From: a virus
Length of the DNA: 21,784 bases
Virus record (IMG/VR): IMGVR_UViG_3300042197_003370
Span: 1 to 21,784 of that record
Reading direction: 5' to 3' (one strand)
Below the pieces are notes generated by a model. That model searched no databases, was not told the origin of the DNA, and worked only from the letters and a program-made list of their open reading frames with translations. Below, in pieces: positions 1 through 14,771 of the stretch (its first letter is position 1; each line of letters opens with the position of its first letter). The position numbers were made by a program, and so were the translations under genes.

Positions 1-1495
1 GATTGGTTAGTAGAGATCCAGACTCATTTAGTAATGTTTTTTCATTAAATTTATTAAAAACTTCTTCAATGTGGGATATTTTTTTAGAAAGTTTTTTATT
101 CTGTTCTTCTATAAAATCTACTTTTAATTTTTCTAGAATAGAATAAATGTCTTCTTTTATATTTTGATAATCCTTATTTCTTTGAATTATTCTCTGTTCA
201 TTTATTAAGATATCCTTTTGCAATATTTCAATTTTTTCATTTAAATCGTTGTTTACACTTAATAAATTTTGATTTAAATTATTTTCTAAATTTATAATAT
301 TTTCTTCATATTTTTTTGATATTTCACTTACTTCTTGGGAAATATCTTCTTTTGCCTCAACTAAATTATCTATTGATTTAGAAAATGTCTCTAGTTTTCT
401 ATCAACATTTATTTCTCTATTTTTAATATCCTTTAAAGTATTTTCATATATTTTAGAAATATGAGAAAACTCATCTATAGAAGAATCTATTTTTTCTTTA
501 CATGAAGAAATTACATTTTGAATATCATCCTTAAGTATAGAGTTTTCTTCTGATAATGTTTTTTCAAATATTTTTAATTCATTTGAAAAAATATCAATTT
601 TATTTTTTGCATACTTCTCTATTGATTTTATTTCTTCTTCAGTAGTTAATTTTAAATTAATTAATAGATCATTATATTTTGGAATTTCTATATTTGAAAA
701 ATTTTCTACCTTTAAATTTACTTTTAGTATTTCTTCTTTTAGATTTTCTTCAAAAGAAGATACCTTTTTAGATATTGTATTTAAATATTCCTCGGATTTT
801 AATTTTCCTTCAGTAAATATCCTTTTATATTTTGGAAGTTCTTCATTGGAAAAATTATTTACATATTCAAATAAAGAACTTACTTCTTTTTTAATTTCAT
901 ATAAACTTTTTTCATTAATACCTTCGAGATTCTTTTCTAGTTCTTTGAATTTTTTATTTGAATACTGATCGATCTGATCAAATTTTTCTTCTAGTTTATC
1001 AATTACATTATCAATTCTAGAACTAGACCTTACTTCAGATTCTACAATAAGTTTGTCATATTTCGGTACATCATTTTCAATAAAATCTTTTACCTGATTC
1101 TTTAATCCAATAAAATCGGATTTTAATCTGCTGATACTTTTTGAATTTAAAGATTTAATATTTTCTTGAACATCATCAATATACGCCTCAATCGAAACTA
1201 GATATGTTACCATAGTTTTATCTAGTTCTTTTTTTTTCGAGGTATCTTTTATTTCCTCCTTTATTTTTTCAATTTCTTTTGAAAGAAAAGAAATTTGACT
1301 TATATTATTTTTAAACTCTTCTATAGTTTCTGTAAAATTTGAAGTGGCACTGAAACTCTCTAATTTTTCTTTCAGTAAAGAAAAATCTTCAGAAATATTA
1401 ACATTACTTTCAATAGAATTTTTTATATTTCCAATAATGGATTTATTATTATCTGACTCATTATAAAAAAGTTCCGAAGGTTTTTTTAATGCCAC
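1..1495 (-). CDS. Long coiled-coil protein, 3' end outside window (unknown function, T4-like phage late region)
   Basis: Reading the minus strand from a GTG at 1495 gives 498 codons without a stop, running off the left edge. The protein starts MALKKPSELFYNES and is extremely rich in Lys, Glu, Asn, Ile, Ser and Leu, with long heptad-like stretches (for example KKELDKTMVTYLVSIEAYID, DNVIDKLEEKFDQIDQYSNK), so an extended coiled coil is likely over most of its length. A motif [VLI]PKY[DKN] occurs three times (starting at nt 1069, 838 and 685). No signal peptide, membrane segment or catalytic motif is seen. An in-frame TAA at 1537-1535 limits the start to GTG 1495 or further in; a GGAG lies 10 nt before the GTG. 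It follows gp16 after 66 nt, in the interval between small and large terminase where I would expect gp17 next. A fibrous virion or packaging-associated role is inference only. I do not recognise the family. Confidence 0.8.
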   Translation of the reverse strand, partial: MALKKPSELFYNESDNNKSIIGNIKNSIESNVNISEDFSLLKEKLESFSATSNFTETIEEFKNNISQISFLSKEIEKIKEEIKDTSKKKELDKTMVTYLVSIEAYIDDVQENIKSLNSKSISRLKSDFIGLKNQVKDFIENDVPKYDKLIVESEVRSSSRIDNVIDKLEEKFDQIDQYSNKKFKELEKNLEGINEKSLYEIKKEVSSLFEYVNNFSNEELPKYKRIFTEGKLKSEEYLNTISKKVSSFEENLKEEILKVNLKVENFSNIEIPKYNDLLINLKLTTEEEIKSIEKYAKNKIDIFSNELKIFEKTLSEENSILKDDIQNVISSCKEKIDSSIDEFSHISKIYENTLKDIKNREINVDRKLETFSKSIDNLVEAKEDISQEVSEISKKYEENIINLENNLNQNLLSVNNDLNEKIEILQKDILINEQRIIQRNKDYQNIKEDIYSILEKLKVDFIEEQNKKLSKKISHIEEVFNKFNEKTLLNESGSLLTN

Positions 1496-1496
1496 T

Positions 1497-1511
1497 CTAT
1501 GGTTTCTCCAT
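1497..1511 (-). other. Four-codon mini-ORF (MEKP-stop) ahead of the GTG start
   Basis: On the minus strand ATG GAG AAA CCA TAG reads from 1511 to 1497. It is preceded by AGGA (1519-1516) at 4 nt, the best ribosome binding site in this gap. Its stop is separated by one base from the GTG of the coiled-coil gene, which would favour termination-reinitiation. Alternatively a one-base indel has split an ATG start from its gene: removing one base would give MEKPRVALKKPSELF. The sequence ATGG-agaaa-CCAT can also form a 4-bp hairpin. Confidence 0.35.
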
Positions 1512-1561: not shown

Positions 1562-1996
1562 CTAAGGAATATCAGTTTGTTTACTTTGCTTTATCAATTT
1601 CAAAAGATCTGAAGTGGATCCTACATACAACGCATTATTAACTGTGGTGGACCCTTTTGTTTTTGTTTCATCAATATCCTTTAATTTTTTTTGAAGATCT
1701 AGTAATTTATCTGTGGCATCAGCAACATTTTTAATAAGTTGACCTGCTACTTCATATGCTCTAGGTTGATCAGTTTCTTGAGCTAATTCTAAAATAGAAT
1801 TTATTGCTTCTTGACCCTTTTCAATTAAGGAATATAAATTACCTCTGGTATATTCATAATCTTTCGTTAAATCATTATTAGATGAAACAACTTCATTTTT
1901 TATAGGTAATATTTCGGGAGATACTGTTAAATTTATTTCTTCAGATGTTCCATCAACATCAAAAGTTTCATTTAATTTTTCAAATTTATCTTTCAT
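1562..1996 (-). CDS. 16: Small terminase subunit, T4 gp16-like
   Basis: This 144-residue protein is the DNA-recognition or regulatory subunit of the packaging motor; in T4 gp16 forms rings and stimulates the ATPase/nuclease gp17. The diagnostic central block is present at about residues 46-108: DYEYTRGNLYSLIEKGQEAI, then PRAYEVAGQLIKNVADATDK and LLDLQKKLKDI, matching the helical core of T4-type gp16 with its PRAYEV-GQLIK signature. The N-terminal ~45 residues are acidic and look disordered; the C-terminal tail (KTKGSTTVNNALYVGSTSDL) is the usual flexible end. The length is slightly shorter than T4 gp16 (164 aa). The ATG lies 2 nt after the gp15 stop (TAA-TC-ATG) and lacks a clear Shine-Dalgarno, suggesting translational coupling to gp15. 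It ends with TAG. Confidence 0.9.
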   Translation of the reverse strand: MKDKFEKLNETFDVDGTSEEINLTVSPEILPIKNEVVSSNNDLTKDYEYTRGNLYSLIEKGQEAINSILELAQETDQPRAYEVAGQLIKNVADATDKLLDLQKKLKDIDETKTKGSTTVNNALYVGSTSDLLKLIKQSKQTDIP

Positions 1997-3055: not shown

Positions 3056-4435
3056 CTAAACTTCTCCGAAAGGATTTCTTTCACTAAAGTCTGTAATTTC
3101 ATCACCTTCAGTTTCAAATATATCATTTTGTGCATATGGATCCACCAAATTATCTGTAGTCACTGATTGAACTGTATATCTTGCAGAAGAAGACGATCCA
3201 ACCAGAGTTTCTCCAACTGCAAAAGATCCATCTATAATTGCAACTTCAAGTTTCCCAGTAACTGCATTCCACTCTCTAACTTTTGCAGTTGTAGATGTTG
3301 CAGATCCAGTAACAACTTCATTATAACGATATGTTCCCGTTCCAACTGAAGATGGGTTTGATATGGTTATTATCGGAGTAATTGTATATCCAATTCCAGA
3401 GTTAGTAATTCTTATTTGAGAGATAGTTCCTGCTGCAGAAACAACAGCAATTCCAGTTGTTGTAACCGCATAAGAAACGTTTGATGGTGAAGAGAAAGTG
3501 ATTGTAGGTGAAGAAGTATATCTACTTCCACCATTTGTAATAGTGATCGCACCAATAGATGCTCCTGAAGTTGCAACACCAACTGTAGCTGCTGCACCAA
3601 TTCCCCCACCACCAATAAAGAATACTGAAGGTGGATATGTATATCCGGATCCTGGTTTTGTTATATAAACTTTATCAATAGAATATGCTGTAGTGAGACC
3701 AGATCTGGATGTCATTATTGCAACAGCTTCAGCAGTAACACCAGAAGTTGGTGGTGATATTGCAACTCTAGGTGCAGATGTATATCCTTGACCATCATTT
3801 ATAAGAGTAATTGTTTGTACACCACCAGTAACTTGAGTAGTTGTTGCTGTTGCAGTAGTACCAATTCCAACTAAAGAAATAGTGGCAATATAACCTTGAT
3901 CTTTAATTACCTCATCAATTTCGGTAACCCCAGTATCAATATCTTCATCTTCATATTCAAAGAGTTCACAACGAAGTTCATAAACATAATTTTTTCCGAG
4001 TTGATAAAATGGTTTTTCTCTTTCAACAAACTTTACTTCAAATAACTTTTCTCCAAGAGGGAAAAAAATTAAATCTCCTTCATTTGGTCTAAGAGAAGAT
4101 TTTATATTTGGTTGATCTTTTATTAAATCTTTAATGTATAGTTCAAATCTCTCTGCTGAAACGATCAGAGTAATTTCATCAGATACTGTTAATCCAAATT
4201 TTGTAAGAACATCAGTATTTTCTGCATATCCCTCATAATTTGCAACATAAGCCTCTATTGGATATGCCTTATCAAAATTAGATTCAATAACTTCTTTGAT
4301 TATTGTTTTTTCTGTAATATATTTTCTGGGCAGATAATGTATTTCTACCCCAAACATTCTTAGGTGCTCATTGATTAAATCTTGAACAAGTGCTTGTTCT
4401 CCTTGAGAACCTTGTAAGAAAAAGGGATTTAGCAT
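3056..4435 (-). CDS. 14: Neck protein, T4 gp14-like, with large beta-repeat insertion
   Basis: gp14 with gp13 completes the portal vertex after packaging so that the tail can dock. Residues 1-180 align with the T4 gp14 core: INEHLRMFGVEIHYLPRKYI, FGLTVSDEITL, PNEGDLIFFPLGEKLFEVKF and KPFYQLGKNYVYEL. The short tail (DITDFSERNPFGEV-like, residues ~444-459) also resembles the T4 C-terminus. Between them, residues ~185-425 are absent from T4 gp14 (256 aa) and hold four GxGYTxxP repeats (DGQGYTSAP 214, PGSGYTYPP 261, GGSRYTSSP 302, SGIGYTITP 346) and one W-TG-L-V / GE-V-G module (about 383-421). The ATG overlaps the gp13 stop by one base (TAATG), so translation is probably coupled. Confidence 0.92.
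   Translation of the reverse strand: MLNPFFLQGSQGEQALVQDLINEHLRMFGVEIHYLPRKYITEKTIIKEVIESNFDKAYPIEAYVANYEGYAENTDVLTKFGLTVSDEITLIVSAERFELYIKDLIKDQPNIKSSLRPNEGDLIFFPLGEKLFEVKFVEREKPFYQLGKNYVYELRCELFEYEDEDIDTGVTEIDEVIKDQGYIATISLVGIGTTATATTTQVTGGVQTITLINDGQGYTSAPRVAISPPTSGVTAEAVAIMTSRSGLTTAYSIDKVYITKPGSGYTYPPSVFFIGGGGIGAAATVGVATSGASIGAITITNGGSRYTSSPTITFSSPSNVSYAVTTTGIAVVSAAGTISQIRITNSGIGYTITPIITISNPSSVGTGTYRYNEVVTGSATSTTAKVREWNAVTGKLEVAIIDGSFAVGETLVGSSSSARYTVQSVTTDNLVDPYAQNDIFETEGDEITDFSERNPFGEV
3326..3823 (-). repeat. Four-copy GxGYTxxP beta-repeat array inside gp14
   Basis: This segment codes residues ~205-370 of gp14. Four imperfect units of 41-47 residues follow the pattern I..I.IT..G.GYT..P.I.IS.P. 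At DNA level the units share the plus-strand phrase gtatatcc(a/g)(a/g)(a/t)tcc, for example around 3638 and 3385. The same unit occurs in gp8 and both giant proteins. Confidence 0.8.
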
Positions 4436-5301: not shown

Positions 5302-5311
5302 GTATTTATAG
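5302..5311 (-). promoter_or_regulatory. T4-type late promoter (CTATAAATAC) driving gp13-14-15-16
   Basis: The minus strand reads CTATAAATAC, with TATAAATA at 5310-5303, an exact match to the T4 late promoter -10 element recognised by gp55-RNA polymerase. It sits 22 nt before the gp13 start and overlaps the stop codon region of the 75-residue gene, leaving room for a short leader containing AGGGG. It is the only exact minus-strand match I noticed near a gene start. Confidence 0.75.
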
Positions 5312-14763: not shown

Positions 14764-14771
14764 TATTTATG
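14764..14771 (-). promoter_or_regulatory. Possible late promoter of gp8 (CATAAATA, one mismatch)
   Basis: The minus strand reads CATAAATA, one base from the T4 late consensus TATAAATA, ending 14 nt before the gp8 ATG and overlapping the stop codon of the upstream gene, the same arrangement as the exact match before gp13. In AT-rich DNA a single-mismatch match is weak evidence. Confidence 0.3.

Follow-up and report, generated by a model that had tools for sequence, protein, structure and literature searches.

Marine T4-like cyanophages are missing the T4 genes wac, g10, g11, g12, g34, g35 and g37, which are presumed to be replaced by unknown proteins (PMC2984593), and their host-attachment fibers are poorly identified. 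In these phages, the slot between gp16 and gp17 is a published insertion hot spot (PMC3037559; PMC2984593), as is the g15–g18 region (PMC2984593). In T4 itself, nothing lies between genes 16 and 17, as a preliminary description of the sequence studied here had rightly pointed out; the two genes overlap. In the cyanophage S-SCSM1, the genes of this slot mostly carry virion-protein annotations, and the one next to gp16 is a ‘long tail fiber protein (virion protein)’. The mass-spectrometry virion proteome of this phage comprises 45 proteins (PMC9602691), and the ‘(virion protein)’ remark in its record presumably marks these. Likewise, proteins _190 and _195 of S-SZBM1, numbered between gp17 (_185) and gp16 (_196), were detected in the virion (PMC9146016). 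Two further phage proteins, which proved to be homologous to the frame described below, carry different annotations: gp272 of B23 (QGT54886.1, 876 aa) is a tail fiber protein, and SWZG_00030 of S-SKS1 (YP_007674395.1, 1187 aa) a baseplate wedge subunit.

In the following, we describe an open frame at the left end of a complete virus contig record of 21,784 bases (IMGVR_UViG_3300042197_003370), the whole of which we refer to as the window. Its genes lie on the minus strand and comprise, from right to left, a giant baseplate-wedge-like gene, a gp8-like gene, a gene of 2,544 residues (phrog_358), a small virion gene, gp13, gp14, gp15, gp16 and the frame in question. Because gp15, gp16 and gp8 are ~50–67% identical to homologs from myophages of Synechococcus and Prochlorococcus, S-SM2 being one of the closest, and gp16 reaches 67% identity to a Synechococcus phage gp16, the DNA comes from a marine T4-like cyanophage or a close relative. 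The placement in a terminase cluster, which the preliminary description had put forward, holds for the upstream side, where gp16 is preceded by gp15, gp14 and gp13; gp17 lies outside the window. The gp14 homolog (3056–4435) has an extra C-terminal region (residues ~185–320) of GGxGYTxxPxVxI-type repeats. Such repeats also occur in baseplate wedge, virion structural and fiber-tip proteins, so that several virion proteins have this beta repeat in common. Rfam yielded no matches in the window.

Re-reading the minus strand from position 1495 to 2 returned the 498-codon frame as it had been described, with a GTG start at 1495–1493 and no stop up to the contig end; no contig extending past the left edge turned up in an exact-match search. 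The frame is rich in Lys (14.3%), Glu (14.1%), Ile (12.0%), Ser (11.0%), Asn (10.6%) and Leu (9.4%), and contains only four Pro and five Gly. Its earlier characterization as Lys/Glu/Asn/Ile/Leu-rich and heptad-like is thus confirmed. The hydrophobic periodicity is strong (power 17.7, vs a maximum of 8.9 in 300 shuffles), but it is not that of a strict heptad: the best period, 3.62 residues, falls between that of heptads (3.5) and hendecads (3.67). AlphaFold2, applied to the stalk as a single chain, gives helices with short breaks from residue 20 to 481 at low confidence (mean pLDDT 59.5), so that the frame is predicted to be almost wholly helical. A sequence search against solved structures yielded nothing significant. 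The Pfam families Apolipoprotein, ATG17_like and Baculo_PEP_C scored far below their cut-offs, and we dismissed them as noise from coiled-coil composition. The features of the frame and its upstream region are listed in Table 1.

Table 1. Features of the probable fiber gene and its upstream region (window coordinates)
Feature	Position	Strand	Basis
gp16, terminase small subunit	1562..1996	-	phrog_445, E 1.6e-51; PF11053, E 3.3e-11
ATAAATA core of T4-like late promoter (NATAAATA), 38 nt before the fiber start codon	1527..1533	-	motif
GGAG, likely ribosome-binding site	1506..1509	-	read from the sequence
Probable fiber gene, 3′ end missing: proposed N-terminal anchor and coiled-coil stalk, 498 codons	2..1495	-	frame, homology, profile
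N-terminal peptide, residues 1–19, MALKKPSELF...	1439..1495	-	conservation in 38 aligned stalks
Segmented coiled-coil stalk, residues 20–481	53..1438	-	AlphaFold2 helices and periodicity
Pro-Lys-Tyr element 1, residues 144–146	1058..1066	-	P144 and Y146 invariant in 38 stalks
Pro-Lys-Tyr element 2, residues 221–223	827..835	-	P221 and Y223 invariant in 38 stalks
Pro-Lys-Tyr element 3, residues 272–274	674..682	-	nearly invariant in 38 stalks
Stalk end just before the connector; the contig stops, connector and tip missing	2..52	-	connector position in relatives

A locus search with the window frame as the single query yielded no relatives. By tblastn on phage genomes, from gp16-anchored loci and through alignment searches, however, we gathered 114 related frames. 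A family profile built from these relatives without the window, B23 and S-SKS1 recognizes all three left-out sequences, with 316.8 bits for the window frame, 321 for B23 and 283 for S-SKS1. Because coiled coils resemble one another by composition, controls were scored as well: T4 fibritin reached −2.7 bits and the reversed sequence −5.8, and 150 randomized sequences, some of them permuted by heptad block or only within heptad positions, all stayed at ≤ −11.6. Judged by its sequence, the window frame is therefore a member of a real protein family, the KPSDFF-stalk family to which B23 gp272 and S-SKS1 SWZG_00030 belong, beyond mere compositional likeness. Among the 109 relatives whose start codon lies within the contig, all have the motif KP[SA][DE][FLY][FY] at residues 5–10, which reads KPSELF in both the window and B23, and all but one (108/109) start with GTG. 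Full-length relatives comprise 677–1290 aa. In a stalk tree computed by a quick method, in which the window, B23 and S-SKS1 all have long branches, the window stalk forms a separate deep branch with a length of 1.46. With at most ~37% identity to known relatives, the window copy is a divergent member of a kind of gene already described from this location: the cyanophage gp16–gp17 hot spot is published, and a fiber encoded there is annotated as a virion protein. The preliminary description could not assign the gene; relatives are annotated as tail fiber proteins, so that the protein largely falls within an already known family.

Upstream of the start codon, 107 of 108 relatives have the ATAAATA core at −29 to −34 (about 31 nt upstream), whereas the background rate of this core is 0.03 per 100 nt. 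The full motif, NATAAATA, is the late promoter known from S-PM2, which also precedes late genes of Syn9 (PMC2984593). From this motif, the fiber gene is very probably expressed late, along with the virion genes. Across the window, ATAAATA is depleted (7 observed vs 18 expected), and three of the five minus-strand copies occupy very short gaps before the fiber gene, gp13 and gp8 (1527–1533, 5303–5309 and 14764–14770), so that the structural cluster may contain more than one internal late promoter.

In the 38 aligned stalks, K5 and P6 of the N-terminal peptide are invariant and S7 is nearly so, and the three Pro-Lys-Tyr elements are common to most relatives. Past the stalk, full-length relatives have a conserved connector (LTPLDQ..HYRLFxNRxQQQ..GGGG), followed by a tip of one of about eight classes. 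As LTPLDQ begins at about residue 500–505 in these proteins, the window contains practically the whole stalk and no tip, and the earlier suspicion that the window lacks the informative domain was correct: in relatives, both connector and tip lie past the point that corresponds to the contig edge.

We defined tip classes by the last 110 residues of the 77 complete relatives with an exact connector motif, setting one frame (L135) aside. Of the eight classes, three are widespread, with 47, 17 and 6 members, one is a pair and four are singletons, including B23 and S-SKS1. Stalks that are 93–96% identical can nevertheless carry different tips, as in L052 vs L066 and in L142 vs L144, and the stalk tree requires at least 10 tip changes, where the minimum would be seven. 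Conversely, tips recur on other stalks in the same slot: the L052 tip on SynMITS9220M01_093, those of L143 and L094 on S-SM2_107, and that of L030 on P-TIM68 gp096, the latter two proteins being annotated as tail fiber proteins. The tip of the S-SCSM1 long tail fiber protein is 46.5% identical to that of L052, and tips of the relatives match PHROG tail-fiber families; a structural model of a tip is of low confidence (pLDDT 55.5). A conserved stalk with swapped tips is the pattern that we would expect of an adhesion fiber under host-range selection. By analogy with the relatives, the window copy would carry a tip as well, and the missing end of its gene probably encodes an interchangeable one that grips the host. 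The frame set aside, L135 (6001–7659), stops at 552 aa just past the connector; its end, RRCNI, is unrelated sequence and suggests a frame change, either natural or from an assembly error. A second coiled-coil fiber family, with the N-terminus LPSIDDF, has the same slot, connector and tips, and its stalk is missed by the KPSDFF profile (loci L011, L018, L023, L025, L038, L045, L049, L062, L083 and L199:1569–5072).

The position of the gene is also conserved. In 102 of the 105 relatives with enough upstream DNA, gp16 is located directly upstream of the fiber gene with a gap of 21–34 nt, and gp17 follows 1.7–3.1 kb downstream in the 29 related contigs that reach it, so the synteny that the preliminary description proposed to check is indeed present. 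As the slot is a published insertion hot spot, the position appears much less strange than it did at first. Seen from the side of gp16, the occupants of the slot are varied. In 78 contigs picked by gp16 similarity alone, with classes set by simple motifs and hence approximate, the next gene is a KPSDFF fiber in 5, an LPSIDD coiled-coil fiber in 9, an xDFFSLIG-type fiber in ~4, a small gene, usually followed by QFKRG-type fiber genes, in ~19, and a Lys/Arg-rich gene type in ~36. A Lys/Arg-rich gene to which we assign no function is also found downstream of the fiber gene in 59 related contigs. Its conserved product (P-TIM68 gp097 type; e.g. L004:11297–12580, L002:3369–4499) precedes gp17 in most such phages and is often encoded by the sole gene between gp16 and gp17. 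This protein, rather than the fiber, would be the candidate packaging partner.

These observations bear on the readings that had been offered for the frame, namely a fiber, an internal head protein or a packaging accessory factor. Of these, the fiber is supported, given that full-length relatives end in interchangeable tail-fiber tips. A role in DNA packaging or inside the head might be read from the place that nearly all relatives occupy between gp16 and gp17 and from the Lys- and Glu-rich coiled coil, but in a known hot spot with varied genes (PMC3037559; PMC2984593), the position in the packaging cluster is no evidence for it. We rejected both versions as hardly credible because the same protein is encoded far from gp16 in B23 and S-SKS1, outside the terminase cluster, and because the relatives terminate in exchangeable fiber tips. 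It is also very improbable that the window encodes a tipless stalk or a decaying fiber gene, whose frame would end soon past the contig edge and yield a spacer or a non-functional product. The window does end a few residues before the connector, with the tip out of view, and L135 does stop right after it; yet 81 of the 82 complete relatives reach at least 677 aa, the five without an exact connector motif retain a recognizable one, and the window stalk is open over 498 codons with a conserved start and promoter.

The main question between the readings is whether the fiber sits on the baseplate or, as a whisker, on the neck. In the latter case, it would be the functional counterpart of T4 fibritin at the collar, with an outward-reaching coiled coil and a variable C-terminus touching the host or the long fibers, and the KPSDFF/KPSELF stalk family would be the missing cyanomyovirus whisker: a neck-attached coiled coil unrelated to fibritin, encoded beside the terminase genes and bearing exchangeable host-binding tips. 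The plan of fibritin is indeed alike, with a conserved N-terminal attachment domain, a segmented coiled coil and alien C-terminal domains in distant phages (PMC3797505), its hydrophobic period is 3.60 compared to 3.62 in the window, and the fiber gene comes after the neck genes gp13-gp14-gp15. Moreover, cyanomyoviruses have no wac, yet a St Kilda isolate is reported to have whiskers (PMC2984593), and S-SKS1, which by its name may be this isolate, has the stalk described here. By contrast, T4 wac precedes gene 13 rather than following gene 16, fibritin scores below zero against the stalk profile, and Pfam scans found no Fibritin_C (PF07921) in the window protein, of which the C-terminus is missing, or in full-length relatives. 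Given this lack of sequence kinship, and because the tips recur in proteins annotated as tail fibers and thus point to tail fibers, we consider the whisker, and with it this role for the whole family, unlikely.

In all likelihood, then, the frame encodes the N-terminal anchor and ~500-residue coiled-coil stalk of a modular adhesion fiber from a marine T4-like (Kyanoviridae-like) cyanophage. In this reading, the gene between gp16 and gp17 would be transcribed late from its own NATAAATA promoter. The product would most likely trimerize through its segmented coiled coil and dock on the virion, probably on the baseplate, via the short conserved KPSELF N-terminus, the proposed anchor. At the far end of the stalk, a C-terminal tip would bind the host surface; this tip, attached via the conserved connector, would be exchanged by recombination between phages. 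By analogy with S-SCSM1 and S-SZBM1, the window fiber may be a component of the virion; no virion proteome was found for any phage that carries exactly this stalk. The window copy adds just one divergent branch to the family, but the family as a whole is a concrete and widespread fiber candidate, whose conserved stalk, swappable tips and conserved slot make tests of host range and attachment site direct.

Among the closest known proteins are the KPSDFF fibers of marine phage contigs in IMG/VR (e.g. L030, L052 and L066), which share the place between gp16 and gp17, the GTG start, the promoter core and the stalk length with the window, and whose stalks are 31–37% identical to it. They differ in the motif, which is KPSELF in the window, and in the gap after gp16, which is 66 nt in the window vs ~24 nt. 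B23 gp272 is homologous across all 498 residues (29% identity, E 9e-27), has the same KPSELF N-terminus and continues past the stalk into the connector and a C-terminal beta-type repeat region; however, it starts with ATG, its stalk repeats are arranged otherwise, and its gene comes after the portal gene gp20 instead of between gp16 and gp17. SWZG_00030 of S-SKS1 likewise has a homologous stalk and the family connector, but the stalk is shorter (connector at about residue 367), the tip is unrelated, and the gene is located at 28–32 kb, far from gp16 at 114 kb. In other phages, the slot and the tips are shared and the stalk is not: Prochlorococcus phage P-TIM68 gp096 and Synechococcus phage S-SM2_107 have tips in common with members of the stalk family, but score −7.2 and −9.9 bits against the stalk profile. 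SynMITS9220M01_093 (Synechococcus phage, LPSIDD-type, hypothetical protein, 1167 aa) has the slot, the connector and a Glu-rich predicted stalk and shares its tip with L052 (56% over 1068 aligned positions), but its stalk is not recognized by the profile (−15.9 bits). Lastly, T4 fibritin (NP_049771.1) resembles the window protein as a segmented coiled-coil fiber of similar length and hydrophobic period, with a conserved N-terminus and a variable C-terminus (PMC3797505), but it shows no sequence homology and has another gene position, and the tips of the relatives are much larger.
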